This document shows positions 17,945 through 32,876 of a stretch of 64,000 nt of DNA, piece by piece. Under the pieces are notes generated by a model. It was not told where the DNA came from. It worked only from the letters and a program-made list of their open reading frames with translations, and did not search any database. Origin of the DNA: Ferruginibacter sp. (GTDB lineage Bacteria > Bacteroidota > Bacteroidia > Chitinophagales > Chitinophagaceae); NCBI GenBank assembly GCA_019638635.1, contig JAHBTM010000002.1, forward strand, positions 40,914 through 104,913, in the 5' to 3' direction. A program made the position numbers and the translations under genes. Within the stretch, counting starts at the first letter, position 1. Each line of letters starts with the position of its first letter.

Positions 17945-17966
17945 CCCACTTATAATATTGTACTAT

Positions 17967-20900
17967 ATGAGTTTTAACCGTATGAACAATATCACCGGCT
18001 GGGTGGTATTCCTGATTGCATCCTGCGTGTATATTCTTACCATGGAAGCCACCGGCAGCTTATGGGATTGTGGCGAGTTTGCTTCCTGTGCCTATAAATT
18101 GCAAATTCCCCACCCCCCGGGCGCTCCACTGTTTGTACTAATCGGACGTTTGTTCATGATTCCTTTCGATCCGCACACCGCCGCAACCGGTATTAACCTC
18201 ATGAGCTCCCTCGCCAGCTCCTTCACCATCCTCTTCCTGTACTGGAGCATCACCCACTTTGGCGTGAAACTCTCCGGTAAATCAAGAAACGAACTGGATA
18301 GTACCAGCATCTTCACCATCCTTGCAGCAGGTGCCGTAGGCGCCCTCGCCTATACGTTTTCGGATTCTTTCTGGTACAGCGCCGTAGAAGGTGAAGTGTA
18401 CGCCCTGTCCTCTTTCTTCACCGCCATCGTTTTCTGGGCTATCCTGAAATGGGAACAAAATGTTACAGAAGAAGAAGCTCAAGGTATTAAAGGCCATTTC
18501 ACCAAGGCCGACCGCTGGATCATCCTCATCTTTTACCTGATGGGCTTATCCATCGGTGTTCACTTGTTGAACTTACTGACCCTACCCGCCATCGTTATTG
18601 TGTATTATTTTAAACGATACAACGTTACCCGCTGGGGAACCCTGATCGCTTTCCTCATTGGTTGCATAATCACCGGTGTGGTTCAAAAAGCCGTCATCCA
18701 ATGGAGCATCAACTGGGCCGCCTCGATGGATGTGCTGTTTAAAAACAGTTTCGGTATGCCTTTCTTTGCCGGCTTCACCTTCCTGTTTGTTTTACTCGGA
18801 TTACTCATTTTCTGGGGCCTGCGCGTGGCCAATAAAAATAACTGGAACTTCCTGAAACTCGGCTTGTGGAGCTTCGCCTTCATGCTCGTCGGCTACTCCA
18901 GTTACCTCACTACCATGATCAGAAGCAGCGCCGATCCGGTCATCGATATGTATAACGTGGATAACCCCGTTACCCTCGTAGGATACCTCAGCCGCGAACA
19001 ATATGGCGATTGGCCCATCCTGTTTGGACATGATTTTACCGACCCCATTGAAGATACCAAAGTAACGGATACGTATATACGCACTGAATCCGGCTACGAA
19101 AAGAAAGGCCGTAAAATGGAATATGTGTACGCCGATCAGGATAAACATTTCTTCCCCAGAATGTGGGACCAAAGCAACGACCAGGGACGCGCCGATTATT
19201 ACGCCGCGTATCTCGATATCGGTAAAGACGAACAAGGCAATTGGGAAAGAAAACCAACCATGAGCGAAAACATTGCCTTCTTCTGGGATTATCAACTGAA
19301 CTGGATGTACTGGCGCTATTTCCTCTGGAACTTCGCCGGTAAACAAAATGATGTACAAGGTGTGTACATGAACAACGTGCGCGACGGAAACTGGAAAACC
19401 GGTATCGGCTTCCTCGACGCCATCCGCCTCGGCAATCAGAATAACCTGCCCGATAGCCTTAAAAATAACAAAGCCAACAACAACCTCTTCGCACTGCCGC
19501 TCATCCTCGGATTGCTCGGCATGTTCTATCAGTATAAAAAAGATAAAAAAGATTTCCTCATCGTAGGCCTCTTATTCTTCTTCACCGGCGTGGCCATTTG
19601 TATCTACCTCAACCAGGCCGGCTTTCAACCCAGAGAACGCGATTATGCCTTCTCCGGCTCCTTCTATGCCTTTGCATTCTGGATCGGACTCGGTGTATTC
19701 TTCGTACGCGATTTATTGAATAAAGGAATGAAAAACCTCAAAGCGTCTGCGTATGTGGCCGCCGCCGTGTGCATGCTCGCCGTGCCTTTACTGATGGCCA
19801 GTGTGGAATGGGATGATCACGACCGTAGCAAGAAAACCCTCGCACGCGACCTGGCCATTAACTACCTCGAAAGTTGCGCCCCTAACGCCATCGTGATTTC
19901 CTTCGGCGATAACGATACCTATCCGCTCTGGTACGCTCAGGAAGTGGAAGGCATTCGTCCGGATATACGTGTCATCAACTCCAGCCTGCTGGGTACCGAC
20001 TGGTACATCAACCAACTTCGGTATAAGTTGAATGAGAGTGCGCCCATCGACCCTATATGGACCAAGGAACAAATTGAAGGACCCACACGCGATATCATTT
20101 ACTACGCACCGCGCCCCGGCGTAAACCCGGATCAATATATGGATCTCGCCTACATGATGAAAAATTATGCCGGCAGCGATGACCAGGCCAAAATGGAACG
20201 CGCTCGCGATGGCAGCTTCCTGAATGTGTTCCCTAACAAGAAAGTATTTATTCCGGTTGACAGGGAAAAAGTGCTGAAGAATGGCACCGTAAACGCCGAT
20301 GATGAAATTTTGCCTGCATTGAGTTTCGAAATTCCTAAAAATGCATTGTTCAAAAATGATGCAGCTATTTTAAATATCATTGCGGCTAACAATTGGGAAC
20401 GCCCCATCTATTTCACTTCAGTGTATGGTGAACTCGGTTTTGGAGATTATCTGCGTCAGGATGGTATGACCCACCGCCTCGTGCCCGTAGCCAACAGCGA
20501 TGTGAACCACGAACGCGTGGCTGATGTGATGCTGAACAAATTCAAATTTGGAAATGCAGGCACACCGGGCGTGTACTTCGATGAAGAAAACCGCAGGCAC
20601 CTGAACGGAATCCGCCTCGCCTACGCACAGGCCGCAGGCTCACTGGCCGATGCCGGTAAACTCGAGAATGCACGCAAACTGTTGAACAAATATGATCAAT
20701 CCGTTGCAGAAGAAAATCTGCCCTATGCCATGGTGAGTAGAAATCAACAACACAACACCATCTCCCTGCAGTTCCTCTATGCCGCGTATAAAGCCAACGA
20801 TACGGCGCTTATTAAAAAGGTCAGTAGCCAGTTGCAAAAAGATATGGAACAACAACAGGCGTATTATCAATCACTGCCCGACAGAATGCGGGATGCATTG

Positions 20901-21038
20901 GCATACGAAGAAGAACGCAACGACGGATTACTGCGCGCCCTCTTCAGCCTCGAACAACAATTTAAACAAATGAATGCTCAACCCAATGTAGAAACCCAGG
21001 GCAACATTCAAACAGCACCGGTAACCGACAGTAATTAA
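17967..21038 (+). CDS. DUF2723 (TMEM260-like) GT-C membrane glycosyltransferase, putative protein O-mannosyltransferase
   Basis: A 1023-residue polytopic protein. The first helix and loop carry YILTMEATGSLWDCGEF (about residues 22-38), whose Asp/Glu pair matches the catalytic first-loop motif of GT-C glycosyltransferases, followed by HPPGAPLF. About a dozen helices follow (to about residue 630), then a large soluble C-terminal region (about 640-1000) with SFGDNDTYPLWY and WERPIYFTSVYG, the conserved signature of the DUF2723 family in Bacteroidota, and helical repeat-like segments near residues 870-970. The human relative TMEM260 is an O-mannosyltransferase; by analogy this enzyme may use a lipid-linked sugar to glycosylate exported proteins. 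The region is richer in G+C than its neighbours. A strong terminator follows. Confidence 0.85.
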   Translation: MSFNRMNNITGWVVFLIASCVYILTMEATGSLWDCGEFASCAYKLQIPHPPGAPLFVLIGRLFMIPFDPHTAATGINLMSSLASSFTILFLYWSITHFGVKLSGKSRNELDSTSIFTILAAGAVGALAYTFSDSFWYSAVEGEVYALSSFFTAIVFWAILKWEQNVTEEEAQGIKGHFTKADRWIILIFYLMGLSIGVHLLNLLTLPAIVIVYYFKRYNVTRWGTLIAFLIGCIITGVVQKAVIQWSINWAASMDVLFKNSFGMPFFAGFTFLFVLLGLLIFWGLRVANKNNWNFLKLGLWSFAFMLVGYSSYLTTMIRSSADPVIDMYNVDNPVTLVGYLSREQYGDWPILFGHDFTDPIEDTKVTDTYIRTESGYEKKGRKMEYVYADQDKHFFPRMWDQSNDQGRADYYAAYLDIGKDEQGNWERKPTMSENIAFFWDYQLNWMYWRYFLWNFAGKQNDVQGVYMNNVRDGNWKTGIGFLDAIRLGNQNNLPDSLKNNKANNNLFALPLILGLLGMFYQYKKDKKDFLIVGLLFFFTGVAICIYLNQAGFQPRERDYAFSGSFYAFAFWIGLGVFFVRDLLNKGMKNLKASAYVAAAVCMLAVPLLMASVEWDDHDRSKKTLARDLAINYLESCAPNAIVISFGDNDTYPLWYAQEVEGIRPDIRVINSSLLGTDWYINQLRYKLNESAPIDPIWTKEQIEGPTRDIIYYAPRPGVNPDQYMDLAYMMKNYAGSDDQAKMERARDGSFLNVFPNKKVFIPVDREKVLKNGTVNADDEILPALSFEIPKNALFKNDAAILNIIAANNWERPIYFTSVYGELGFGDYLRQDGMTHRLVPVANSDVNHERVADVMLNKFKFGNAGTPGVYFDEENRRHLNGIRLAYAQAAGSLADAGKLENARKLLNKYDQSVAEENLPYAMVSRNQQHNTISLQFLYAAYKANDTALIKKVSSQLQKDMEQQQAYYQSLPDRMRDALAYEEERNDGLLRALFSLEQQFKQMNAQPNVETQGNIQTAPVTDSN

Positions 21039-21062
21039 CGGTTACGCATAAACGAAATAATG

Positions 21063-21090
21063 AAGGCACCGTATTAAGGTGCCTTTTTTT
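21063..21090 (+). terminator. Terminator after the DUF2723 gene
   Basis: AAGGCACC / GGTGCCTT with a 7-nt loop, followed by a T run, 24 nt after the stop. Confidence 0.88.
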
Positions 21091-21140
21091 ATAAGTGTAA
21101 TCTCAGATGCTTAAGTATCTCTGAAAGCATGTGTAGTATT

Positions 21141-21236
21141 GGGGCGTTCCCCCCGTCAAGAACGGGGGTCGTGCTTTCCGTTGCATCCGCCTCCGGCGGT
21201 TCCACTTCAATCACTAACGCGGGGCTTACGGTCACC
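21141..21236. repeat. Structured intergenic repeat element with two hairpins inside a closing stem
   Basis: The segment opens GGGGCGTTCC and closes AACGCGGGGC; GCGTT (21144-21148) can pair with AACGC (21216-21220). Inside lie two perfect hairpins: CCCCCGT/ACGGGGG (21150-21156 and 21162-21168) and CCGCC/GGCGG (21187-21191 and 21195-21199), separated by the single strand TCGTGCTTTCCGTTGCAT. Sequences of this layout (GGGCGTT..., hairpin, CGTGC/CGGGCTTTCCG, hairpin, CACTTCAATCACTAACGC) recur between genes in many Bacteroidota genomes as I remember them. Copy number here cannot be checked from one window. Confidence 0.6.
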
Positions 21237-21296
21237 GAATGTATTTCTAACTGAATTAAAAAATTATCCCTTGGTTAGTGCCGGATAAAAGAAAGC

Positions 21297-21322
21297 AAAA
21301 AAAAGCAGCTTTAAAAGCTGCT
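21297..21322 (-). terminator. Terminator after the cold-shock protein gene
   Basis: On the minus strand AGCAGCTTTTAAAGCTGCT (21304-21322) forms a near-perfect palindromic hairpin followed by an unbroken T run, 10 nt after the csp stop. Confidence 0.85.
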
Positions 21323-21331
21323 CTTTCTGAA

Positions 21332-21523
21332 TTAACGTTGTAAACTGACATTCACGGCGTTCAGTCCTCTGTTCCCAACTTCTGTATCGTACGTTACCAT
21401 GTCGTTTTCCTGAATTTCTTCTTTTAATCCTGTTACATGAACAAAAACTTCTTGTCCATCTTCGCCTTTAATAAAACCAAATCCTTTGGTTGTGTTAAAG
21501 AACTTTACTGTTCCTTTTTTCAT
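21332..21523 (-). CDS. Cold-shock domain protein (CspA family)
   Basis: A 63-residue single cold-shock domain starting MKKGTVKFFNTTKGFGFIKG, with RNP1 (KGFGFI) and RNP2 (VFVHV) RNA-binding motifs. It acts as an RNA chaperone that melts structure in mRNA. I choose the ATG at 21523 because the alternative start six codons upstream is a GTG and the family normally begins at MKxGTVKFFN. A candidate promoter about 150 nt upstream would leave a long 5' leader, as is usual for csp genes controlled by leader structure. Confidence 0.92.
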   Translation of the reverse strand: MKKGTVKFFNTTKGFGFIKGEDGQEVFVHVTGLKEEIQENDMVTYDTEVGNRGLNAVNVSLQR

Positions 21524-21676
21524 TGTGTTGTTTTTTGCCACTTGCGTGGGCTTGATTTTAATAATTTCGTTCCACCTGTGTTGTGGTGAATGACGCTTGA
21601 TTAAAAAATTGTGAATCTAAACTTAAAGTATTGGTGATACTATACGATTGAGAACTCAATCTTCTGATGAAGGATA

Positions 21677-21684
21677 CAAATGTA
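21677..21684 (-). promoter_or_regulatory. Candidate -7 element of the cold-shock gene
   Basis: On the minus strand TACATTTG (21677-21684) fits TAnnTTTG and would give a leader of about 150 nt before the csp ATG. No -33 TTTG at the usual distance. Confidence 0.4.
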
Positions 21685-21739
21685 CACTTCATTTTCCGTA
21701 ATTCCTAATTAAATTTCATTTTACGTGACCATTCAACGG

Positions 21740-21964
21740 TATTCTATGCATCTTCTACCTTCATCCCTAAGCTGTACCGTTTTGCGGCTTGGCGTAATGG
21801 AGGATTTTTAGCACAAAAGTTCAATCGAAGAACAGCACTTGAACCTACCACAAAACTGTCATACGAAGCCTTTCACCCGCCATTAAGCCAAACCGCTGTT
21901 ATCGCTTCGGTGTTCTTTTTCGTCTGTTGGTTTATCGGTCGTTTGGGTCTTGCGTTGGGTCAGG
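21740..21964. other. Noncoding left flank of the defence island
   Basis: Sequence from about TTCTACCTTCATCCC to the left hairpin contains no gene. Its style (GCGGCTTGGCGTAATGGAGG ... ACAAAACTGTCATACGAAGC ... AAGCCAAACCGCTGTTATC) resembles noncoding stretches that I recall beside accessory genes in other Bacteroidota. That resemblance is from memory, not a search. Confidence 0.4.
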
Positions 21965-22023
21965 CACACTCTTTGCCAAACATAGGTTTTAGCGTTGGCT
22001 TGAGTGCCTTGGCAATGTGTGTG
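21952..22023. repeat. Long imperfect hairpin at the 3' end of the defence operon
   Basis: Arms CACACTCTTTGCCAA (21965-21979) and TTGGCAATGTGTGTG (22009-22023) pair at 13 of 15 positions around a 29-nt loop. GCGTTGG occurs just before the first arm (21952-21958) and again in the loop (21992-21998). It ends 16 nt beyond the AIPR stop codon. There is no T run, so it is not a classic terminator, although it could protect or end the operon transcript. A related structure lies at the other end of the operon (31631-31719). Confidence 0.6.
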
Positions 22024-22039
22024 GTTGTTAGCGAGGGCA

Positions 22040-24361
22040 TTATCTAAATCCATACTTCTCTACTGTTTTTAAGTTAAGTCTGGCTAGAAACTTATTTCTA
22101 TCAGTTAGTGTCATTTTGCCTTCTAAAAGGTCGGCCATAAAACGATACTTATACGCATCAAGCCGTTTATTTTTTTTATCCCATTGTACAATTCTTTCAA
22201 TAAGGTCAATCGTTATTTCAACTTCTTCAATTTTTTTACTATTGTCCTCAATAAAGAAATCATCCATATCAAAAAATAATTCTGGATTAACTTCTGCAAC
22301 AATATTAAGAATGGCTTCTCCTTGATTCCTTTCTATGTCTGTAATTGTTCTATTGTTTCTAATTTTACTGCTTAAAGTAGAAGCCATATCATACTGATAT
22401 TGGGTAAGATTTTGAGTCTCTCTTCCCCAGTCTTCTATTTTCTTCCAAGTTTTTCCGTGTATTGATTTTAATCTATTTAATGAAGCTTCAATCTCCGCTT
22501 TTTGGGTTTCATCTTCAGTTAGCTTTTTTCTTTTTTCAGTCAATTTATTTTCCAAGTCGGATTTTAAACTTTCAAGATCAATCTCAAAACTTTCATTTTT
22601 AATTGCATTCCAACATTCCTCTTTTTTTGCCCACTCTCCATATAAAGAGCCAGGGGCTTTAGTTTTGATGTAATCCTCTATTTTAGACATCACCTCGTGT
22701 AATTTAGATTTTAAAGTATCGCTTAGCGATTGATGTTTCCAGATTTTGTATAAATCAAGTTTGTAGTTCAATTTATAACCTAACCAAGCTAATGAATAAG
22801 GAACTGTTATATAACGCATATCTCCAATTGCGTTCGGTTTTACACCATATACTTTTTCAGCAGATGAAAATAAAATAGCTTTTGCAATAGCATCTTCAAA
22901 CCAAATATTGTCTGGTTTAAAACTAAAATTATAATTCAGAAATTGAGCGTAATTTTTCTGACTACCTCTAACGACAATATGAGGTCCAATTACTAACTTT
23001 TTACCATTATATACTTCCTCGTATGAGTTAATAAACTTTGCTAAAGATTCTTTTGTGAACATCTGACTTCTTGGATTCTGCTTGTCAAATTGTTTTCGCT
23101 TTGATGGTGTAATACCAAATCGAATTCGCTCATTTTTATACTGACCTCTTGAACGCTCAAAAAACCAACGTGTTTGAGTAGTTTCACCTGAAATTGGCGG
23201 TGCCCAAATAGTCCTTGAGAGTTTTTCAATTAAAACGTGATTTTCTTTGTTAGAACTTAAATCAGAAGCAGAAACTCTATTTTGAGTGTTAGCATATTCT
23301 GCAATACGACCAACTATTTCAGAAAAATTCTCTCTATTTTTTACAATAGTAAGTTTAACAGGAACAAATACATTACTTATATCAACTTTATCTTTTTTCC
23401 AAGTATGATAAACTGATGCTGTAGTTTGTCCACCATTTACAATTTGAAAATCCTTTACTTGGGCAATAGCTTTACCTTGATTGTTTGGCAAATCTGTAAT
23501 GGTAACTTCTTCGGCAGTAGCTGCGATGCCATTATTAAATGCCATAAACATATGCTGCTCTTTCAAAATAGTATTTCGAATTCCTTTATTTATTTTACCT
23601 GTGAATTGAAGAAATGAACGAACATTTTGCTCCAGAAGTCTAGCTCCATATTGTTCATAAATATCTGCTAAGGCAAGACCTGGGATAATCGCAAGCCAAG
23701 ATTGATAATCAGAATTTTCGCTTTCATTGACAATACAAGGTACTTTATATCCAGCTACTTCAAAGTTAATTTCAATAGGTACTCTGGATTTATCTGAAAG
23801 GTTAAAAAGGTAGTTTATATCAATTGTTCTGTAAAAAATAGTATAACCAGCTATTGTGTCAGAAATTTTCACATCTGATTTTACCTCACCATTCGTTATT
23901 AAAAATATGTTTACTCTGGTTAGATATTCTTTAACCTCAGGAACATTAGCTAGAGTTTGAGCAAGATCAAATATTTCAGAACTTTCCTCTATTTCGTTCA
24001 CATAATCCTTGTAAATAGCATTTCTAAAGAATTTTACTGCTCTTTCAATTGTTTTGTCTGCATCACTCTTTGTAACACTTTGAATGGTGGAATCAGCATT
24101 GTATATAGTTACAAACAAATCAAGTGTTTCGTAATTTTCATAAAGAGAGTAGCCATTAATTTTATGTTCAACACCTCTTTTACTAATCTTTTCATCAAAG
24201 CAAACACGATAATTTTCTGTTTCTCCTGCTTCGGATAAATACGATAGGGCTAACTCTGTAAAAATCTGTTCTGGGTTTGTTCCTTCTTCCTCAGAAATAA
24301 GACTTGCGTTAATTTCCTCCTGAATGTCTATATAGAACTTTTGTAATTCTTTGTTTTCCAT
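22040..24361 (-). CDS. AIPR (abortive infection phage resistance) family protein, last gene of defence operon
   Basis: A 773-residue protein of the AIPR family (PF10592). The family core is visible around residues 265-330: FMAFNNGIAATAEEV, then KDFQIVNGGQTTASVYHTW (the NNGI and GGQTT signature). The C-terminal third is rich in charged coiled-coil-like sequence (for example ESLKSDLENKLTEKRKKLTE). Named for phage-resistance plasmid genes, the family travels with methylase-linked defence operons; its biochemical role is unsettled. The start is taken as the ATG at 24361 (MENKELQKFYIDIQEE), 7 nt after the stop of the DUF4420 gene; a longer frame would overlap that gene by 65 nt. A+T-rich like the rest of the island. 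Confidence 0.85.
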   Translation of the reverse strand: MENKELQKFYIDIQEEINASLISEEEGTNPEQIFTELALSYLSEAGETENYRVCFDEKISKRGVEHKINGYSLYENYETLDLFVTIYNADSTIQSVTKSDADKTIERAVKFFRNAIYKDYVNEIEESSEIFDLAQTLANVPEVKEYLTRVNIFLITNGEVKSDVKISDTIAGYTIFYRTIDINYLFNLSDKSRVPIEINFEVAGYKVPCIVNESENSDYQSWLAIIPGLALADIYEQYGARLLEQNVRSFLQFTGKINKGIRNTILKEQHMFMAFNNGIAATAEEVTITDLPNNQGKAIAQVKDFQIVNGGQTTASVYHTWKKDKVDISNVFVPVKLTIVKNRENFSEIVGRIAEYANTQNRVSASDLSSNKENHVLIEKLSRTIWAPPISGETTQTRWFFERSRGQYKNERIRFGITPSKRKQFDKQNPRSQMFTKESLAKFINSYEEVYNGKKLVIGPHIVVRGSQKNYAQFLNYNFSFKPDNIWFEDAIAKAILFSSAEKVYGVKPNAIGDMRYITVPYSLAWLGYKLNYKLDLYKIWKHQSLSDTLKSKLHEVMSKIEDYIKTKAPGSLYGEWAKKEECWNAIKNESFEIDLESLKSDLENKLTEKRKKLTEDETQKAEIEASLNRLKSIHGKTWKKIEDWGRETQNLTQYQYDMASTLSSKIRNNRTITDIERNQGEAILNIVAEVNPELFFDMDDFFIEDNSKKIEEVEITIDLIERIVQWDKKNKRLDAYKYRFMADLLEGKMTLTDRNKFLARLNLKTVEKYGFR

Positions 24362-24368
24362 AAAAATG

Positions 24369-25370
24369 CTATTGTATTTCTCCCAAAAGAGTTTGGTGGT
24401 TAATTCTCCATTCCTCTGATTCCGATAGAACAATAGAATATCTCACATCTCCAACACCGATAGGGATTTGATTTTCAGTTATTCTTGGGAAATTATCCGT
24501 AACTCGGTATATATTTACTTGACGAATAGTGTAACCTCTCTCATCATAAAGAGGTTTGTGAATATCATAATATCCAGATTCCAATAATTTCAGCTTAAAT
24601 AGGTTGGAAGCCATTGTGTTATCATTCAATAATTCCGAAACTGCGTCAATTAGTATATTCAATGATTCACCGTTTCCCACTCTTACATCTAGCGAAAGAT
24701 GAAATAAAAATATTTTTTCAATGATGGAATCGTCTAACTGTCTTTCACTCGTGATATGAATTTTTTGATGATTGTTACCGTGTGTAGTTTTTACTTCAAC
24801 TGCCCAATTTGAGTATTGAAAATCTTGAATAGACTTTTCTGGGCCAAGCCAAGATTTAATACAATAGTTTTTATCCGAATTATTAGTCAAGAAAAATCGT
24901 AAAAAATAAATTTCACCGTAAAGCCCCCTTTGTGCTTCGTCTGATAAACCTTGTTTACCAACCTTTTCAAACAAAGACTGCCATTTAGCCAAACGCTCCA
25001 ATAGTTTTTCTACTAAGGTTTGTTCTGTGGACACGTCTGATACTCCAAATATCAAATCTTCGCAAAGCGTAGAGAAAATATCTTTGTGCTGTTTGTTTAG
25101 TAAAAGAATTAGTAAAAATTTCTTCGATTTATCTCTTTCATCTGGTAGCGTTTCAATCTTGATGTCTTTGAGTTTATTCCATTGATTTTCATAAAATGGG
25201 AATGCTGCACTTATTCTAAATGCAATGCACCTTAATTTTTCTGGAGCTTTTAATGCAATAAAAACATCAGGCAGTACCTCTGCCGAATACCTCTTATAAA
25301 GTAAACCTGAATGATTGGAAGTTTCACTCTCTAATCCAACCCAAATATTTTCAATCTTCGTCATCTCCAT
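24369..25370 (-). CDS. PD-(D/E)XK motif protein (DUF4420), candidate nuclease of defence operon
   Basis: A 333-residue protein starting MEMTKIENIWVGLE. Residues about 150-200 contain RGLYGEIYFLRFFL, then WLGPEKSIQDFQ and WAVEVKTTHG, which together form a PD-(D/E)XK nuclease core: Glu in the first helix, Asp in DFQ, and Glu-x-Lys in EVK. This is the DUF4420 family, seen almost only beside Z1 and AIPR genes in methylase-linked defence loci. The start overlaps the 3' end of the Z1 gene by 20 nt (alternative ATGs at 25364 and 25397). It is the likely DNA-cutting effector of the system, but substrate and activation are unproven. Confidence 0.82.
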   Translation of the reverse strand: MEMTKIENIWVGLESETSNHSGLLYKRYSAEVLPDVFIALKAPEKLRCIAFRISAAFPFYENQWNKLKDIKIETLPDERDKSKKFLLILLLNKQHKDIFSTLCEDLIFGVSDVSTEQTLVEKLLERLAKWQSLFEKVGKQGLSDEAQRGLYGEIYFLRFFLTNNSDKNYCIKSWLGPEKSIQDFQYSNWAVEVKTTHGNNHQKIHITSERQLDDSIIEKIFLFHLSLDVRVGNGESLNILIDAVSELLNDNTMASNLFKLKLLESGYYDIHKPLYDERGYTIRQVNIYRVTDNFPRITENQIPIGVGDVRYSIVLSESEEWRINHQTLLGEIQ

Positions 25371-28038
25371 AATCTTCAAAATCTTCTTCAACCACATCAA
25401 ATCTGTCTAGTAACTCCTCATTAACAGCATAAGATACTGGTGCGTTAAAATTACTTTTCGGGAAACTTATTGCATAGCCAACAAATGGGTTAGTTCCTTT
25501 TGGTAGGGGATATTTTTCAAGACTTTCTTCTGGGTCGAGTAAATATATTATTAATAATGGCTTTCTTGGGTCTCTTAATTCATTTCTAACTATTTGTCCA
25601 TTTGGATACATTGCGTCACCTTCTTTTTCTCTATGAAGATTGGTCAATTCCATTGCTCGTAATTTTTCAGCATCAGTAAAATCAACAAATTCGTCAGATG
25701 GACTTATTATATGAGATTTTCTTAAATAGTAAAGTTGTTCACTTGAATTCTTATCATCTTCTGTCCTTTTCCATTGACCGATAGAAACAGTATTATTACT
25801 AACGATAAAATGGGAGTTGTTTTTAGCATTTGGTTTTGACATTAAGGCAACTCTCCAATCGGTTAGTTCTCCATTTCGCAATTGAGTAGTAATAAACTGA
25901 ATTATTTTCCTAGGTTCTGCTTTTTTAAGGTTTTCAACGGATTGAATTCCATCAAAAAAGTTGATGACTTGTTCAGCTGGGATATCATACCAAACAAAAG
26001 CATTTGGTTTAGGAACAAAATTAGCTGGTAACCCTGATATAAATTTTTGAGTGTTCCTAAGGTTATTGTCAATAGTCGAAATATCTTTTTTAAACTCGTA
26101 AGATTCGACCAATCTACCTGCCCAGGAAATTTGAACCGTAATTGCCGAACGCATTTTATTAGTTGCTGAGATTTGAAGAACTCCAGGGTGTGTTCTAACT
26201 TTTAGAGCATATTGTTCTGGCGTTGAACCAGCTATGTCTGACATATAATCAAATTCTTCTCTAAGTTCTTCTGAGGCAAGTGTAATATGACAAAACCACT
26301 CATTCAATTCTCTACTTGTAAAAAGTCTGCATAAGTCAACATACCCACTTCTATAACCAAACCAACGCCCCATTTGCATCAAAGTGTCATACATTTTTGA
26401 TGCTCTTAAATAATAACTAACTGAAAGTCCCTCTAAAGTCAAACCTCTTGAAAGTTTATTACCACCAACTGCAATTACTGAAAGTCCATTTTTGTGGTCG
26501 AAATAGTCTAATGCTTCTCCTGAACCTCCGTGAATAGATTTAACTTCAATACGTGATGCAGCATCATTCAAATGCTGTAAAACTTCACTCCATTTATGAA
26601 CCTGAATTTGAGAATCTAAATTTTTGAGTTCTGAATCAAGAATTTGTTGAGAAACAGAAATATAAGATTTATATCCGTTTTCATCCTGTTCAAATGTTGA
26701 TTTTAATTCATCCAATATTACTGCATCATTTTGGTCGATCCCTCTTCGGTAATAAATGAATTGATTAGAAACTAATTCTGCGATATGGTCTTGCCAACGC
26801 ATAAAACGGGAAACGTGGATAAGCATTGAATTATGAACCATTGTTTGCCCTCTTAATCTTCTAATAGCGCAAGTGATTATAAAACAACGAATAGCCCTTT
26901 TCAAAGATTCAGGTAAAGATGATGGTAATTGATCATCTTTTTTATGTCTATCAGGAACAAATCCACTGTAGTCATTTATCCTGTTTACTATAGGTAAAAC
27001 TGTATTTGAAGCCCCATCTTCTTCCAATGGACTAAATCCAAATACTTTTTCTGGTCCAATATAGTTTGAAGGAGCTGGGATATTTTTTATAAAGTTCCTT
27101 GGGAATAAATTTTGGTCATCCAATGGAATAAAAATGTTAGCAAAAGGAGTAGCTGTATAACCAACATAAGCATTCTTTCCAAATAGATTTAGAATTTGAG
27201 TAATCCAGCCATTAATAGAACTTTGTCTTTCAGGGTCGTTTGAAATGTTAATAGAAGCATTGTCTGCTTCGTCATCTATAAGTAAGAGTGATTTATTACG
27301 AATTACTCTTCCTAATTCATTGTCTTCATTTGCTTGAGCTGCAAGCCATTGATGTATTCTTCTGAGTACGTGTGGATTTTTCTTTATTACTGCAACAATT
27401 GGTTCAGAAGTATTGAAGTTTATACCTAGGGCATTTGCCGCTCCTTGAGTAAAATCACCTTTTTCAATGCTAGAAGTTAGAGAATGAGCAACAATAGGCG
27501 AACCAAAGTAGGGGTCACCAACACCTATTTGAATACTTCTCTGATCAAAAGCTCTTGTATGTTGCGTATCAAATCCTAAAAAACTTTCGTCAATTCTTAG
27601 TTGCGTTTGGCTTCTTAAATTATTATGAATTCCAGCCATAATAATTATTAATTTGAATCCAGCATCAGCAGCTTTACAAACGAGACCAGTATAATTTGCT
27701 GTTTTTCCTGATTGAACTTGTCCAACAACTAAACCTTTCTTATTTATCGTGATTTTCAGTGATGGATCAAATAAATTATCAAGAATGCTATCTGTAAGTC
27801 TATCTAGCTTGTTTATAACTTCTGGTGCAAAATTCTTTTCTATTTCGAGGTACTCTCTATATCTACCCCAAAAACCATTTGAAAAATCTAATTCAGCTCT
27901 TTTCTCATTTAACCAAGGTAAGTTTTCATCAGCTTTTTCAATTGACCTAAATTCATCTTGACGAATTGTGTAAAGTTCTTCAATTCTTCTTACAAGCATT
28001 TCACGGTTTTCATTTATGAAATACTTCATTTTAAGCAC
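25351..28038 (-). CDS. Z1 domain protein, superfamily 2 helicase-like ATPase of defence operon
   Basis: An 895-residue protein as read from GTG at 28038. SF2 motifs are visible: Walker A GLVVGQVQSGKTANYTGLV (residues about 102-120), Walker B LLLIDDEADNASIN (about 249-262), motif III-like YVGYTATPFANIF (about 289-301) and the arginine-finger region MQMGRWFGYRSGYVDLCRLF (about 563-582). The Z1 domain (PF10593) occupies about 380-620. These proteins are thought to be DNA translocases in MORC-linked restriction systems. The N terminus is uncertain: 26 further in-frame codons upstream look protein-like (SSYTREEIEDAVDEVL) and would join the overlapping ATG at 28117 if one A were removed from an A6 run. 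Confidence 0.85.
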   Translation of the reverse strand: MLKMKYFINENREMLVRRIEELYTIRQDEFRSIEKADENLPWLNEKRAELDFSNGFWGRYREYLEIEKNFAPEVINKLDRLTDSILDNLFDPSLKITINKKGLVVGQVQSGKTANYTGLVCKAADAGFKLIIIMAGIHNNLRSQTQLRIDESFLGFDTQHTRAFDQRSIQIGVGDPYFGSPIVAHSLTSSIEKGDFTQGAANALGINFNTSEPIVAVIKKNPHVLRRIHQWLAAQANEDNELGRVIRNKSLLLIDDEADNASINISNDPERQSSINGWITQILNLFGKNAYVGYTATPFANIFIPLDDQNLFPRNFIKNIPAPSNYIGPEKVFGFSPLEEDGASNTVLPIVNRINDYSGFVPDRHKKDDQLPSSLPESLKRAIRCFIITCAIRRLRGQTMVHNSMLIHVSRFMRWQDHIAELVSNQFIYYRRGIDQNDAVILDELKSTFEQDENGYKSYISVSQQILDSELKNLDSQIQVHKWSEVLQHLNDAASRIEVKSIHGGSGEALDYFDHKNGLSVIAVGGNKLSRGLTLEGLSVSYYLRASKMYDTLMQMGRWFGYRSGYVDLCRLFTSRELNEWFCHITLASEELREEFDYMSDIAGSTPEQYALKVRTHPGVLQISATNKMRSAITVQISWAGRLVESYEFKKDISTIDNNLRNTQKFISGLPANFVPKPNAFVWYDIPAEQVINFFDGIQSVENLKKAEPRKIIQFITTQLRNGELTDWRVALMSKPNAKNNSHFIVSNNTVSIGQWKRTEDDKNSSEQLYYLRKSHIISPSDEFVDFTDAEKLRAMELTNLHREKEGDAMYPNGQIVRNELRDPRKPLLIIYLLDPEESLEKYPLPKGTNPFVGYAISFPKSNFNAPVSYAVNEELLDRFDVVEEDFEDYGDDED

Positions 28039-28109
28039 TTCATCAACGGCATCTTCAATTTCTTCTCTTGTATAAGATGAGCTGTCGGATGTTCTTAATA
28101 GGGTCTTTT

Positions 28110-29591
28110 TTACTCATTGATTAAAAATTCAATATATTCTGGATAGAAATTATATGGTTCAGTATTTAGAATTCTTGCTTTTGCTTTTTCAATTGAAAGA
28201 CCACTTTCTACAAATCCGTTAAAAAGTTTTTGCATTGTCTCCTTTATAGCATTGTGGTCTATACCTTCAAATGGTTGCCCGTGTGGTTTTTCATTTTCGC
28301 TTTCTTGAAGCGTGATTAAAGGCACAGGTATCGTTTCCTCAATGAACTGAATTACTTTATCAATTTCTTTTTTTAAATCGCCTGATTTAGAAAGCAATTC
28401 ATTTAAAAGCGGGTGATTCCGATTTATTTTATAGAATCTTTTACCGTGCCTAGCTCTTTCTTCCCAAAACGGAAAATATTCATCCGAAGCCAATTTTCTT
28501 TTAAGCACCTTGCCTTTGTGTCTATAAACCTCTACGGCTTGATTTCTAACATCTTTTGCTAGTGCAAGAATTTGTTCACGGTAAATTGAAGGAGGTCTGG
28601 CGATAGATTTCTTGATGTCAATTTGCCAGTCATCATCAAAATTATTTGGTAAGTCAATTTGAATTCTACAAAGGTCATAGTGTCCTTCTTTTTTAAAAAG
28701 ACCAAGCCAATCGCCAGCAACTAACAATCTGCGATTTCTATAAACATAGAAACCTTGATGAGCTGTCCAACTTTCTTTTGGCCCTTTTCCATAATTATAT
28801 TGTTCTGCTGTAAGTTTCGACCGGTGTGGAAGTACAAAACCTTTAATCTTTATTGAACCACCTTCTAATCTAGTCTCGGGTTTGCTTTGTAAATTATCTA
28901 TTCCAATCATAAATGGATCCCAAGATTTTATTTCCCTCTCACGTAAATAGATTTTCAATCCTTCATCCATATATCTATGAAAAACCATAGATAAGTGAGA
29001 TTTTACCGAATCCATTATTCCTAGAAACTTGCTTCTTGCTTCTTCACTATCTTCTGAAGTATCCTTTGTAAGTCTATCCAAATCCCACCAAATTACACAA
29101 GTGCCTATCTCAACAGTTTCTATTTTCTTAGCCCAGCTTTCTTCGTTAGGAATGTATCTAATTAGTTTCCATACTTTTTCTTGATTAACATAGTCCAAAT
29201 CCCAAGTCCAAAAAACAGGCTTGTAACCATTAGCTTTTGAGAAAACAGTAAATTTTCTTGATTGCGAAAATGAAGCAGTTTTTAAGCCTAAACCAAAACG
29301 ACCTAAATCATCTCGATTTCTTTCATCTAATGGATTTTTGCTTCCAGGACGCATAGCTTGAATGAGTTGTTCATTATTCATCCCAGTGCCATCATCTAAA
29401 ATAGACAATGTTGTGTTTGAACCTTTCCAATCGTAATCAATCCATATATTTTTCGCTCCAGCAGTTATAGAATTATCAATAATGTCAGCAATAGCAGTTT
29501 CAATAGAATAACCAATCGCACGAAAGGTTTCAATCATTGAGCTTGCTTCTGGTTCTGCGGAAGTGGATGGTATGTTGTTGTAGTCAATCAT
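28110..29591 (-). CDS. MORC-like GHKL ATPase of defence operon
   Basis: A 493-residue ATPase of the GHKL superfamily. The Bergerat fold motifs are clear: N box AIADIIDNSITAGAKNIWID (about residues 34-53), G1 ILDDGTGMN (about 66-74) and G2 DLGRFGLGLKTASFSQSRKF (about 95-114). The architecture, an N-terminal GHKL domain followed by an S5-like region with a conserved WTAHQGFYVYRNRRLL segment (about 278-293), corresponds to the prokaryotic paraMORC proteins described in restriction-modification neighbourhoods. ATP-driven dimerisation probably clamps DNA and signals to the helicase or nuclease. It overlaps the preceding DUF3883 gene by 8 bp. Confidence 0.85.
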   Translation of the reverse strand: MIDYNNIPSTSAEPEASSMIETFRAIGYSIETAIADIIDNSITAGAKNIWIDYDWKGSNTTLSILDDGTGMNNEQLIQAMRPGSKNPLDERNRDDLGRFGLGLKTASFSQSRKFTVFSKANGYKPVFWTWDLDYVNQEKVWKLIRYIPNEESWAKKIETVEIGTCVIWWDLDRLTKDTSEDSEEARSKFLGIMDSVKSHLSMVFHRYMDEGLKIYLREREIKSWDPFMIGIDNLQSKPETRLEGGSIKIKGFVLPHRSKLTAEQYNYGKGPKESWTAHQGFYVYRNRRLLVAGDWLGLFKKEGHYDLCRIQIDLPNNFDDDWQIDIKKSIARPPSIYREQILALAKDVRNQAVEVYRHKGKVLKRKLASDEYFPFWEERARHGKRFYKINRNHPLLNELLSKSGDLKKEIDKVIQFIEETIPVPLITLQESENEKPHGQPFEGIDHNAIKETMQKLFNGFVESGLSIEKAKARILNTEPYNFYPEYIEFLINE

Positions 29592-30351
29592 TTATTCCTT
29601 GTAATTCGATATTGGAAACACTCCACTGCACTTGGACTGTTTGAATTATATTCTTTTTTGGATTTAATTTTGAAAATGGGTCATTGATGAAGGAAATTTC
29701 AGGGGAATCATTGATATTAGACACAAGACAGACTGTATATTTTGTTCTTTGCTGTTTAGCAGTTTCCCATTCTTTATTTGTAAAGAGAAGTCCACCTATA
29801 TTACTAGCAAGTCCTTTAACTTCAATAAAATGTTGATATGATTTAGTTTTAATTTCAAAATCATATCCACATCCTAAATCTCTTGTATCAATCAACTCAC
29901 CCGCAAAAGGCAAATTATTTAATTTATGATATTTGATAAAAAATTGTTCAGCTTTTTTTCCTGTTGGACCTCTTAGTATAAAAATCGGATTAGTAATGAC
30001 TTCATTTTCTGAGTTATCTATTTCAGGCAAATCAATTTTATTCCCATTTATAATTTCCACTGCTATTTGTCTAATATCAAATTCCTCCAACTGCTCAAAT
30101 AGGGAAATAATATTTGAAATTGTTTTTCTTGGTTGTCTCTGATACCAACCTGCTCTATGTCCGTGAAATGGATCAAACTCATCTCTCCAATTTTTTATAG
30201 TATGTTTGTTAATTTGAAGCTTGTCAGATAAATCATCAAAAGCATCTTTCCAAGTTTTGTATCCTAAATTATTAACAGCTTCATCATTGAAGCGGGACAA
30301 ATAGTAAGAGACAACAATAGCTTGATCGTTATTTATCATTCTCCAAAGCAT
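29584..30351 (-). CDS. DUF3883 domain protein, second candidate nuclease of defence operon
   Basis: A 255-residue protein. The N-terminal half (to about residue 100) is helical with KLQINKHTIKNWRDEFDP, a helix-turn-helix-like stretch. The C-terminal half is a DUF3883 domain: GKKAEQFFIKYHKLNN, then LGCGYDFEIKTKSYQHFIEVKGLAS with the Asp ... Glu-x-Lys spacing of a PD-(D/E)XK nuclease core, and TNKEWETAKQQRTKYTVCLV. DUF3883 domains recur in restriction and defence proteins. It overlaps the methyltransferase gene by 23 bp (11 bp if the in-frame ATG at 30339 is used) and the MORC-like gene by 8 bp. It may bind or cut target DNA. Unproven. Confidence 0.8.
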   Translation of the reverse strand: MLWRMINNDQAIVVSYYLSRFNDEAVNNLGYKTWKDAFDDLSDKLQINKHTIKNWRDEFDPFHGHRAGWYQRQPRKTISNIISLFEQLEEFDIRQIAVEIINGNKIDLPEIDNSENEVITNPIFILRGPTGKKAEQFFIKYHKLNNLPFAGELIDTRDLGCGYDFEIKTKSYQHFIEVKGLASNIGGLLFTNKEWETAKQQRTKYTVCLVSNINDSPEISFINDPFSKLNPKKNIIQTVQVQWSVSNIELQGIND

Positions 30352-31591
30352 TAAATAATTCTTCTGCTATTTTTTTTGCCATTAAAGGTGGTACAGCATT
30401 CCCAATTTGTTTAAACGCAGCGGTTCTAGTTGCACCTTCCTTTTCGCCTTCAAAATAATAATCATCTGGAAAAGATTGTAGTCGTGCTGCTTCTCTTACA
30501 CTGATTGATCTATTTTGCTTACTATCAGGATGAATATAATAATGACCATCTTTGGCAATATGGGCAACTACTGTTTGAGAGTAGGGTAAATCAGAAGCAA
30601 CCACCTTAAATCTGTCAAAAAATGAAGTGCGATTTTGATGGGTCTTTAATCTTTCTGGTAAATCATTGTAGTTTAATCGTTCTTGTTTTTTATCCCATTT
30701 CTGAACGGCAATTTTATAAATTTTTTTATCTTGCTCTCTATGGGGTCTAGCCATATGTTGAGTTAAAATGTCAATACCATTGCGTAAAGCGTAAGATTTT
30801 AAGTATTCCGTTGTTTCAGTTTTGTATTTTAAAAATCTGTCTATACCTTCACCAGCTTTTATTACAGGCAAATCGTCCAGTAAATCTTTAACTAAATAGT
30901 TGCTTTCAATTGCAATTTCCTCCAAGTTTGGAATGCGAATCTTTTTATTTTTTTTCCAACCAAGAATGATTATTCGTTTTCTATTTTGCAATACGCCAAA
31001 GTTCCTTGCTTCAAGCGTATGCAGTTTTATTTGATAGCCTTTTTTGTTAAAAATCTTTTCCATCTCTTCGAGATAGTGTCCACCTTTAGCAGACTTTAAT
31101 CCCAAAACATTCTCAAAGACGAAAATTTTAGGTTTATATCTCTCTAAATATTCAGCATATTGAATAAAGAGGTAATTTCTTGGGTCACCTTCCATTTTGG
31201 TTTTAGACCGCGAACGTCCAACCAATGAATATGCTTGGCAAGGTGGTCCGCCAATAATTAAATCAACCTTTCTTTTTCCTAGGCTTTTCCTTATTTGCTG
31301 ATGTATAGTTTCATTGTGTTCATCACCAATTGGAAGGTTAATAACAGCTTCCAACATGTCTTTTGGTACACTTAAATATAACTGCTCACGAGTTATCTCA
31401 CCTTTTAGATAGGAAATATAGATTTTGTAGTTGTTGTTAGCTTTTAAGTAATGGTAAGCTGCTCTTGTTCTCAGAGTATTACAAGCAGAATTTTCAATTT
31501 CAACGTGAGCAATAGGCTCAAAACCAGCTTGGATAAAGCCTTCTGAAAGTCCTCCTGCTCCTGCAAATAAATCTATGAAATTGTAAGTCAT
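30329..31591 (-). CDS. DNA (cytosine-5-)-methyltransferase, first gene of defence operon
   Basis: A 420-residue C5 methyltransferase, full length, that would mark host DNA. Motif I is FIDLFAGAGGLSEGFIQAGF (SAM binding), motif IV is LIIGGPPCQAYSLVGRSRSK with the catalytic Pro-Cys, motif VI is FVFENVLGLKSAKGG, motif VIII is LQNRKRIIILG, and motifs IX-X are SVREAARLQSFPDDYYFEG and FKQIGNAVPPLMAKKIAEEL. The target recognition region (about residues 240-330) is variable and gives no specificity. It opens a six-gene co-directional operon. The gene is more A+T-rich than flanking housekeeping genes, consistent with acquisition by transfer. Confidence 0.93.
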   Translation of the reverse strand: MTYNFIDLFAGAGGLSEGFIQAGFEPIAHVEIENSACNTLRTRAAYHYLKANNNYKIYISYLKGEITREQLYLSVPKDMLEAVINLPIGDEHNETIHQQIRKSLGKRKVDLIIGGPPCQAYSLVGRSRSKTKMEGDPRNYLFIQYAEYLERYKPKIFVFENVLGLKSAKGGHYLEEMEKIFNKKGYQIKLHTLEARNFGVLQNRKRIIILGWKKNKKIRIPNLEEIAIESNYLVKDLLDDLPVIKAGEGIDRFLKYKTETTEYLKSYALRNGIDILTQHMARPHREQDKKIYKIAVQKWDKKQERLNYNDLPERLKTHQNRTSFFDRFKVVASDLPYSQTVVAHIAKDGHYYIHPDSKQNRSISVREAARLQSFPDDYYFEGEKEGATRTAAFKQIGNAVPPLMAKKIAEELFNALENDK

Positions 31592-31610
31592 TTAATATTT
31601 TTCTTTGGTT

Positions 31611-31643
31611 CAAATTTACTTGTTTATTCTGTGCGTTGGCAAA
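31611..31643 (-). promoter_or_regulatory. Promoter of the defence operon
   Basis: On the minus strand TTTG (31640-31643), a 21-nt spacer and TAAATTTG (31611-31618), 20 nt before the methyltransferase ATG. The -33 element lies in the direct repeat at the base of the adjoining hairpin, so structure formation or recombination there would affect expression. Confidence 0.6.
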
Positions 31644-31719
31644 AATTCAGGCTCTTTTGCTTGCCAAGCGGTCGCCCGTGTGTTGGGGCAAGCAAATGCG
31701 CCTGAATGTGCGTTTGGCA
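31631..31719. repeat. Imperfect 63-nt palindrome framed by short direct repeats at the 5' end of the defence operon
   Basis: Two 21-nt arms, 31645-31665 (starting ATTCAGGCTCTTTTGC) and 31687-31707 (ending GCGCCTGAAT), pair at 19 of 21 positions around a 21-nt loop. The hairpin is framed by near-identical direct repeats GTGCGTTGGCA (31631-31641) and GTGCGTTTGGCA (31708-31719). GCGTTGG and TCAGGC also occur together at the left-hand hairpin (21952-22023), so the two ends look related. Possible roles: recombination site, methyl-sensitive operator, or remnant of the insertion event. Confidence 0.6.
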
Positions 31720-31821
31720 TTTTATTTCTTTCGTTCATTTTATTAATTGTAGTTGTCTTTTTTACACTGAGCGATAACTATTAGAATACTTTCTTCCCGT
31801 AATGATACAAGTACCTGAGGG

Positions 31822-32865
31822 TCAGTATACGTTCACCTCTCTTTCCAATGCAACGCCAAAGGTTTGCTGCACAGATTCAATGATGCGGTTGCTAAGCTCG
31901 AATATATCGGCACCCGACGCGTGGGCATGGTTCACCAGCACCAAGGCCTGCAAGGCATGGCATCCGGCATCCCCTTTTCTGTATCCTTTCCATGAAACAC
32001 CTTCTGCAGGTCCGCAATGCTCTATCAACCAACCGGCAGCCAACTTCACACGGCCAGTTTCTAATATATAACCCACTATATCCTGATGTTTTTCTTGCAG
32101 TGCATGAAAGGTGTCTGCACTCACTTCCGGGTTTTTAAAAAAACTACCGGCATTTCCAATCACAGCCGGATCAGGTAACTTGCCCATTCTTATTTTTATC
32201 ACGGCATCGGCAACGGCACGAATACTCAAATCCTTCACACCCATGTTTTCCAACTCCCGTGCAATGGCTCCGTATGAAATATTGTAATCCGGTTTTTTAT
32301 TGAGTTTGAGCGTAACCGATGTAATCACATATTTGTTTTTCCACTCTCTTTTAAACCGGCTTTCCCGATAACCGAATGCACAGTCATCTGCATACATGGT
32401 ATGCATCAATTGGTCCTGCACGTCCATCGCCGTTAAACAATGAAAAACATTTTTAATCTCCACACCATACGCGCCAATATTTTGCATGGGGGCTGCACCC
32501 GTGTTGCCCGGTATCAGTGCCAGGTTTTCAATTCCTGCATATCCGTGTTCAATGCAATACTCCACCAACTGATGCCATCGCACACCGGCACCGGCTTTAA
32601 CCCAAACGTATTGTTCATCCTCCTGCACCACATCCATACCCGGAATAGCGTTCAACAACACCAATCCATCTACATTTTTTGTAAATAGAATATTACTGCC
32701 TCCTCCTAAAATAAACAACGGACTTTTTATATCGCCAGCCCGTGCAAGGGTATTTCTTAAGGCATCTTCTGATTGTACTTCCGTGAACCATCTGGCATAC
32801 ACATCCATACCAAATGTATTGTGGCGCAACAATGATTTATTTTCTATCCATTCCATGTGGGTCAT
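31822..32865 (-). CDS. murB: UDP-N-acetylenolpyruvoylglucosamine reductase MurB
   Basis: A 347-residue FAD enzyme that reduces UDP-GlcNAc enolpyruvate to UDP-MurNAc with NADPH in peptidoglycan synthesis. The FAD domain shows LGGGSNILFT near residues 54-63 and IPGNTGAAPMQNIGAYG (about 122-138). The catalytic Ser is in GNAGSFFKNPEVS (about 237-249). The overall size and C-terminal domain fit the type I (E. coli-like) class. I prefer the ATG at 32865; a TTG at 32871 and an ATG at 32856 are alternatives. It starts 12 nt after the priA stop, so it is the last gene of a plsC-priA-murB run. Confidence 0.95.
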   Translation of the reverse strand: MTHMEWIENKSLLRHNTFGMDVYARWFTEVQSEDALRNTLARAGDIKSPLFILGGGSNILFTKNVDGLVLLNAIPGMDVVQEDEQYVWVKAGAGVRWHQLVEYCIEHGYAGIENLALIPGNTGAAPMQNIGAYGVEIKNVFHCLTAMDVQDQLMHTMYADDCAFGYRESRFKREWKNKYVITSVTLKLNKKPDYNISYGAIARELENMGVKDLSIRAVADAVIKIRMGKLPDPAVIGNAGSFFKNPEVSADTFHALQEKHQDIVGYILETGRVKLAAGWLIEHCGPAEGVSWKGYRKGDAGCHALQALVLVNHAHASGADIFELSNRIIESVQQTFGVALEREVNVY

Positions 32866-32876
32866 ATTCAATTCTT

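Follow-up and report, generated by a model that had tools for sequence, protein, structure and literature searches.

An anti-phage system named MZA, encoded by mzaABCDE, was reportedly described by Gao and colleagues in 2020. MZA-like systems are said to be widely distributed, mzaABCDE is called validated, and MzaA is identified as a sigma factor (Miller et al. 2022, PMC9523054; our statements about this and the other cited papers refer to the parts of them that deal with these systems). Here, we analyze a relative of MZA in a window (the whole stretch of DNA that was analyzed) of 64,000 nucleotides from contig JAHBTM010000002.1 of a Ferruginibacter sp. genome. Six genes at 22040..31591, all on the minus strand, encode a C5 cytosine methyltransferase, a DUF3883 protein, a GHKL ATPase of the MORC family, a Z1 ATPase, a DUF4420 protein, and an AIPR protein. 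We propose, with a probability of roughly 55%, that this operon encodes an MZA-like, methylation-guarded, ATP-dependent DNA restriction system with exchangeable modules. This kind of system is already known, as the gene set has been published apart from DUF3883. What is new from the comparison with relatives is a variable slot between the methylase and MORC genes and the exchange of AIPR tails of two classes.

Other described systems share parts of this gene set. Miller et al. 2022 predict a Type II system with Z1, DUF4420 (printed as DUF4220), and a C5 methylase, along with AIPR and MORC. Among MORC operons, the third type (Iyer, Abhiman and Aravind 2008, PMC2292703) combines an S5 MORC, a superfamily 2 (SF2) helicase with the motif DThhQXuRhFG, and a partner with a restriction endonuclease fold; methylases and AIPR are also named for it. 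CglI and NgoAVII (PMC4267653) are three-gene systems in which site-specific cleavage is accompanied by extensive ATP hydrolysis, at about 170 ATP/s per monomer. Finally, in Prevotella intermedia, the C5 methylase of an operon that also encodes an AIPR and a protein with a Z1 domain is reported to be active on GCWGC, with 66% of sites (n = 11) protected.

An MZA-like operon with six genes

An earlier, sequence-only reading of this DNA placed six genes here and assigned them to families, and all six were found at those places with strong profile matches: DNA_methylase (E = 1.8e-65), NOV_C/DUF3883 (3e-15), HATPase_c_3 (2.6e-33), Z1 (3.1e-82), DUF4420 (3.5e-81), and both AIPR (1.4e-92) and AIPR_N (7.7e-41). 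As in MZA, homologues of MzaB (GHKL), MzaC (Z1), MzaD (PD-(D/E)XK), and MzaE (AIPR) follow each other in the same order, with PADLOC E values of 2.7e-110, 2.1e-170, 1.1e-25, and 4.1e-90, respectively. The NCBIfam scores of these four proteins (429, 656, 147, and 394 bits) are all under the equivalog cut-offs (850, 1500, 420, and 1050 bits). Unlike MZA, the operon lacks MzaA and has a C5 methylase and a DUF3883 gene in addition. The MzaE profile covers residues 50-614 of the 797 residues of the AIPR protein, which runs about 180 residues further. In the source genome, the matches of the MzaA profile are confined to contigs C68 and C50, and the window's contig has none; the profile also has matches in 10 of 14 control genomes, and we take the two in the source genome for ordinary sigma factors. 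By these comparisons, the operon is MZA-like and not a strict MZA.

The core of the Type II system of Miller and colleagues (Z1, DUF4420, and C5 methylase), as well as AIPR and MORC, are all present in the window's operon. However, the description of that system names neither DUF3883 nor any exchange of AIPR tails. A putative transcriptional regulator is associated with that system; the window's six genes include no separate gene for one, and the helical N-terminal part of the DUF3883 protein may be a candidate. The features given above for the third type of MORC operon are also shared, including the DThhQXuRhFG motif in the Z1 protein. The differences are that Vsr has no match in the source genome (which is 97.5% complete) and that the passages on this operon type do not mention DUF3883. 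With CglI and NgoAVII, the operon shares a C5 methylase and a Z1-bearing SF2 ATPase, whereas those systems have a PLD-B3 R protein and no MORC, DUF4420, or AIPR, as far as they are described; no PLD-B3-type domain was matched in any of the six proteins. No PDB sequence matched the Z1, AIPR, or DUF4420 protein at E <= 0.1.

Automatic annotation may suggest the DISARM system because the best match of the methylase is DrmMII of PADLOC (577 bits). The partner proteins of DISARM are DrmA, DrmB, and DrmC. We rejected this label because the other five proteins match no Drm model at E <= 0.1.

Relatives (loci with L numbers) provide evidence that the operon is maintained. Relative to L013, dN/dS is 0.04-0.19 across the six genes, and the active-site motifs are intact, so these are not chance open reading frames (ORFs). 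The sequence-only reading had proposed a restriction-modification defense operon of the paraMORC kind; the families, the precedents (Iyer 2008, Miller 2022, and the MZA models), and the spread between distant hosts speak for the defense role, and the paraMORC label fails (see below). That reading also held that the cooperation of the six parts was not established knowledge. This holds for the cooperation itself and not for the gene set without DUF3883, which has been described.

The interval between the methylase and MORC genes is a variable slot

One scan of genome contigs with the window's MORC protein gave 30 seeded loci, and this sample is biased towards close relatives. Many of these loci lie on contigs of metagenome-assembled genomes (MAGs), so the hosts named for them (archaea, Bacillota) may be the result of misbinning. 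There are also duplicates: L016 and L092 are identical, and L003, L004, and L005 lie inside L109, L110, and L111. We surveyed the slot in the 28 of the 30 loci with the methylase and MORC genes on one contig (the contigs of L019 and L033 end before the methylase). The slot is empty in 15 of the 28 and holds DUF3883 in six, two of which have a further uncharacterized gene. Another four hold a GHKL gene of the HEF_HK type and one or two following genes, and the remaining three hold an HEF_HK-like trace (L017), an HhH-GPD gene, and an uncharacterized gene for 612 amino acids (aa). Thus, this interval is a variable slot with DUF3883 as an optional occupant, and not, as first proposed, one of six equal parts.

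Elements with HEF_HK and Response_reg_2 have been reported beside methylases (PMC8011034, in the part on these elements). The GHKL element in the slot of four loci is similar, by likeness, with the HEF_HK model unscored. The window's operon has no such element. A plasmid of Hymenobacter has the order Vsr, methylase, sensor-kinase-like gene, hypothetical gene, DUF3883, MORC-like ATPase, Z1, PD-(D/E)XK, and AIPR, and its kinase-like pair recalls these elements. A fragment from the same genus as the window (L006) also has the order methylase, DUF3883, MORC.

There were some side observations about the slot. At L017:9780-10004, an ORF of 74 aa between methylase and MORC has a 28-bit match to the HEF_HK-like GHKL protein of the slot and may be what remains of an accessory gene that was lost. 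L029:8806-9486, on a contig labelled Euryarchaeota, is an HhH-GPD glycosylase-like gene after the methylase. L019:2-1279, on a contig that is too short to show the methylase, lies directly before MORC and encodes a protein whose match to HSDR_N_2 is sub-threshold. On the Terribacillus plasmid pT1 (L115), DUF3883, AIPR, and Z1 are together near a relaxase gene, and this stretch lists no methylase or MORC, although the plasmid's gene tables are incomplete.

The DUF3883/NOV_C protein (29584..30351; 255 aa; identified by profile, alignment, and model) starts in relatives at a position that corresponds to 30339. E135, D164, and E177-x-K179 are invariant in seven sequences. In the structural model (pLDDT 72.5), a helical N-terminal half precedes a C-terminal PD-(D/E)XK core with the order alpha-beta-beta-beta-alpha-beta. 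A fold search put Hjc resolvases first, and RecU and HincII lower, with a best E value of only 0.029.

The methylase gene (30329..31591; 420 aa; catalytic motifs intact by profiles and alignment) is the only C5 methylase gene that we found in the source genome. DUF3883 directly follows it, and a survey of restriction-modification in archaea counts DUF3883 as a presumed group of type II restriction enzymes (in the part of the survey on this family). This raises the idea of two adjacent systems, in which the methylase and DUF3883 form a classical type II pair that shares one target, and MORC-Z1-DUF4420-AIPR is a separate unit. We consider this quite improbable. The methylases of L018, L020, and L023 have target-recognition regions that are 72-77% identical to the window's, yet these loci have no DUF3883; in L028, DUF3883 adjoins a very different methylase (24% identity in that region); and the Terribacillus stretch, within its incomplete gene tables, has DUF3883, AIPR, and Z1 but lists no methylase. 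The same comparisons led us to reject an obligate methylase-DUF3883 pair. We also rejected DUF3883 as a stand-in for Vsr, as both are present in L028, L037, L039, and the Hymenobacter plasmid.

The methylase itself is traded. Compared to the window, L038 has 87% identity in MORC but 35% in the methylase and 22% in its recognition region. Since the methylase was replaced on a kept core, we infer that the core would carry no fixed copy of the methylase's target specificity. Across 14 close loci, mean pairwise identity is 86% for MORC, 81% for Z1, 83% for DUF4420, 78% for AIPR, and 64% for the methylase.

AIPR proteins exchange their C-terminal tails

The MzaE-like AIPR gene (22040..24433, from profiles) is listed with 797 aa, and from comparison its start is most likely the ATG at 24361 rather than the TTG at 24433. 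Its exchangeable C-terminal region, of class I, spans about residues 625-797 (22043..22561; the boundary is approximate) and is all-helical in the model. The heads of the window's AIPR and L014's are 98% identical in amino acids and the tails are just 26% identical. At the nucleotide level, in 40-codon windows, identity is 92-99% up to codon 561 and 42-55% from codon 641. Similarly, L017 and L018 share 96% in the head and 26% in the tail. Profile comparison shows that the two tail classes are homologous (99.2%).

We mapped the tail classes, which were named from the alignment beforehand, onto a tree of the heads of 17 classed and two unclassed AIPR sequences. The classes require five changes, as compared to a mean of 5.2 when they are shuffled (294 of 500 shuffles were as low), and class II as a single clade is rejected (p = 1.4e-44). 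Hence, tails of about 170 residues have been exchanged repeatedly. The exchange is not tied to the methylase, DUF3883, or DUF4420 because L014 shares all three with the window (94%, 93%, and 96% identity, respectively). We also considered a tie between the AIPR tail and the methylase's recognition region and rejected it: the plain correlation is r = 0.22 (p = 0.07, 20 loci), and partial Mantel tests given MORC yield r = 0.04 (p = 0.38) in the 14 close loci and -0.04 (p = 0.63) in 20. For a tie to the C-terminus of Z1, the partial Mantel value is -0.14 in both sets. (The sets include L016's tail, which is cut.) We also compiled a table of slot, tail, and Vsr by hand from the slot survey. In these small samples, the comparison of tail class with Vsr gave 5:0 and 6:6 (p = 0.10), and the comparison with DUF3883 had p = 1.0.

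What the AIPR protein does could differ from what we propose. As the model is of modest confidence and no fold match reached E <= 0.001, AIPR may be a nuclease, an RNase, or a sensor; the Hachiman protein HamA was at rank 13 of the fold search (probability 0.18). Pfam gave nothing over its cut-offs for six AIPR tail pieces. Among PHROGs, the methylase matches its families, MORC has a weak match, and AIPR matches an Abi-alpha-like family and one uncharacterized family.

The main rival to a restriction system is an abortive-infection or sensing device in which AIPR's variable tail senses a phage product, the nucleases attack the cell's own or all DNA, and the methyl mark is secondary. In favor of such a device, the tail is a part of the core that is exchanged, and we detected no tie between it and the methylase. 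Against this, the methylase is beside MORC in 28 of the 30 seeded loci, with the other two contigs ending too early, and it is under strong constraint. We regard abortive infection as unlikely. Alternatively, the tail classes could be escape variants: phage inhibitors would bind the tail, and exchange would evade them. The repeated exchange of two divergent but homologous classes fits with this, but we know of no inhibitor of AIPR, and we likewise hold this explanation to be doubtful.

The MORC, DUF4420, and Z1 proteins

The MzaB-like MORC gene (28110..29591; 493 aa; profiles, motif, and PDB sequence matches) encodes a GHKL-S5 ATPase. The S5 motif GhXhhpXXRhl is present in all 44 sequences that are 440 aa or longer and score over 150 bits (including the window's own and four duplicate fetches) and occurs in eight of 1,000 shuffles of the window's protein. 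This motif is specific to MORC and absent from paraMORC1-5 (Iyer et al. 2008, PMC2292703, in the part on S5), so the protein is MORC proper and the paraMORC1-5 identity is ruled out. Its best PDB sequence matches are chains of MORC4 and MORC3. At the GHKL ATP site, the motif is DIIDN, and the Asp is invariant in 21 aligned sequences. MutL and the eukaryotic MORCs have Glu at this position, and the protein is perhaps a slow ATPase. The MzaD-like DUF4420 gene (24369..25400; 343 aa; profiles and alignment) encodes a PD-(D/E)XK protein with E163, D193, and EVK (202-204) invariant in 21 sequences.

The Z1 gene (25351..28038; profiles, motifs, and comparison) encodes an MzaC-like SF2 ATPase of 895 aa if read from a GTG, with a mosaic C-terminal third. 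Relatives of the same type have 915-938 aa. The sequence-only reading described the junctions as overlapping or within 8 bp except before Z1, where it gave a gap of up to 71 bp unless the start of Z1 is at 28117, and the junctions are indeed so close for all genes but Z1. In L013, L014, L016, and L018, the Z1 ATG overlaps the MORC stop codon, and the same ATG is present in the window at 28117; 28055..28117 is the remnant of this native start, as identified by comparison with relatives. However, 14 bp of L013 and L016 are absent from the window, with the junction near 28081/28082; in L016, these 14 bp sit between two 5-bp direct repeats. Because of this absence, the native frame runs for just 20 codons, and the long frame starts with the GTG at 28038. 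Judging from relatives, the Z1 protein probably lacks about 33 N-terminal residues. The absence could reflect either a true mutation or an error in the assembly.

The operon could thus be a decaying copy that the lost Z1 start has inactivated in this genome. The four relatives that we examined retain the N-terminal stretch. Yet the other frames are intact, with low dN/dS. Also, Z1's Walker A, Walker B, and DTLMQMGRWFGYR motifs are intact and lie downstream, with Walker A starting at residue 104 of the remaining frame, and internal GTG or ATG codons could serve as starts. Furthermore, the analysis is based on the assembly, which is in 127 contigs. We rate inactivation of this copy as possible but not probable. 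The source genome has a single Z1 gene.

At L030:11373-14189, windows in the C-terminal part of Z1 (residues ~626-775) are 20-26% identical to the window, and most of the motor is 78-100% identical; judged by these identities, the Z1 C-terminus of L030 is another exchanged part. L036, L037, L039, and L041 are of a related operon type with a Z1 protein of 1207-1230 aa. There, a gene for an ATPase of 633-640 aa (AAA_15-like in L036) has the position that the DUF4420 gene has elsewhere, and the AIPR tail is 8-28 aa.

Distribution and insertion site

The operon is 93% identical at the nucleotide level, over 9.9 kb, to a Paenimyroides contig, and relatives also lie on contigs, mostly from MAGs, that carry the labels Bacillota and archaea. 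Z1 was matched in 18 genomes, the window's own among them, of an even sample of 395 from the phylum. Of the other 17, 11 have a MORC match, and Vsr is nearby in nine of these 11; DUF3883 (at 1e-4) was found in none of the 17. (One of them, L092, has the same sequence as the seeded L016, with next to nothing visible upstream of its methylase.) These counts indicate that Vsr is the usual companion and that DUF3883 is rarer. In viral contigs, the DUF3883 alignment had 29 pattern matches and the MORC protein had two, none of which were confirmed. E. coli genomes had no DNA match to the MORC gene.

The operon was first described as A+T-rich and inserted between csp and murB, and both points are borne out. 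In 1-kb windows, its G+C content is 0.315-0.348 versus 0.44-0.50 in the adjoining genes (17.5-21 kb and 31.5-35.5 kb); G+C also dips to 0.37-0.39 elsewhere in the window (15-17.5 kb and 36-37.5 kb). On one side is murB (31822..32871, minus strand, from gene calls and relatives' murB loci), and on the other is csp, for a cold-shock protein of 63 aa (21332..21523, minus strand, from relatives' murB loci). The site looks like an insertion because, among 29 murB loci of relatives, csp lies about 270 bp downstream of murB in L063, whose murB is the most similar (78%), and because a homologue of the window's gene at 17958-21038 adjoins murB in L067 and L083. In 28 of the 29 loci, csp was not within the up to 1.5 kb that we examined beside murB, and in the loci other than these three, that stretch had neither csp nor the homologue. 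Repeats in 21038-33000 showed no convincing island ends.

Discussion

The proposal of a restriction system is based on the protein families, the intact active sites, the MzaB-C-D-E order, the low dN/dS, the Z1 and Prevotella precedents, the spread of the operon, the slot, and the tail exchange. In this system, the C5 methylase would mark host DNA, and the Z1 ATPase would hydrolyze ATP on unmarked DNA, coupled to cutting, as has been shown for the relative N.CglI. The MORC ATPase may act as a closing clamp to hold or remodel DNA, by analogy with eukaryotic MORCs. DUF4420, with its intact motif, would be the main nuclease. AIPR would be a trigger or effector subunit whose exchanged tail, of two old classes, may serve as a recognition surface (or as an escape surface), and DUF3883, where it occupies the slot, would be an optional extra PD-(D/E)XK nuclease.

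Several points weigh against this proposal. The lesion at the Z1 start may impair the operon in this genome, and the fold matches of DUF3883 are weak. For AIPR, the model has a pLDDT of 68.8 and the fold search gave nothing at E <= 0.001. In small samples, we detected no tie between tail class and the methylase's recognition region, the Z1 C-terminus, DUF3883, or Vsr. Half of the AIPR sequences of at least 560 aa (17 of 34) are outside both tail classes: two are cut by contig ends (one sequence twice), six have tails of 8-39 aa, four have tails of about 112 aa, and five have other tails of about 190-270 aa. Also, the exchange is not total, because identities correlate in the set of 20 loci, both between AIPR head and tail (r = 0.57, p = 0.0002; 0.14, p = 0.20 in the 14 close loci) and between the methylase's recognition region and MORC (r = 0.48, p = 0.012; 0.30, p = 0.12 in the close loci).

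We met no mention of DUF3883 in this slot or of AIPR tail exchange in the parts of the open-licence literature that we searched, which is not a claim that they are absent from print. The comparison yields a map of exchange, in which MORC, the Z1 motor, DUF4420, and the AIPR head are constant, and the methylase, the slot gene, the Z1 C-terminus, and the AIPR tail are traded. This pattern of trading hints at where recognition may lie. As a tentative generalization, which we think is less likely to be right than wrong, MORC-Z1-AIPR systems may be a conserved ATPase-nuclease engine with exchangeable modules, and the C-terminal domain of AIPR may be a two-class recognition surface that repeated allelic replacement maintains in distant microbes, independently of methylase specificity. 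If this is true, the AIPR tail would give a restriction system a second step of recognition that does not depend on methylation.

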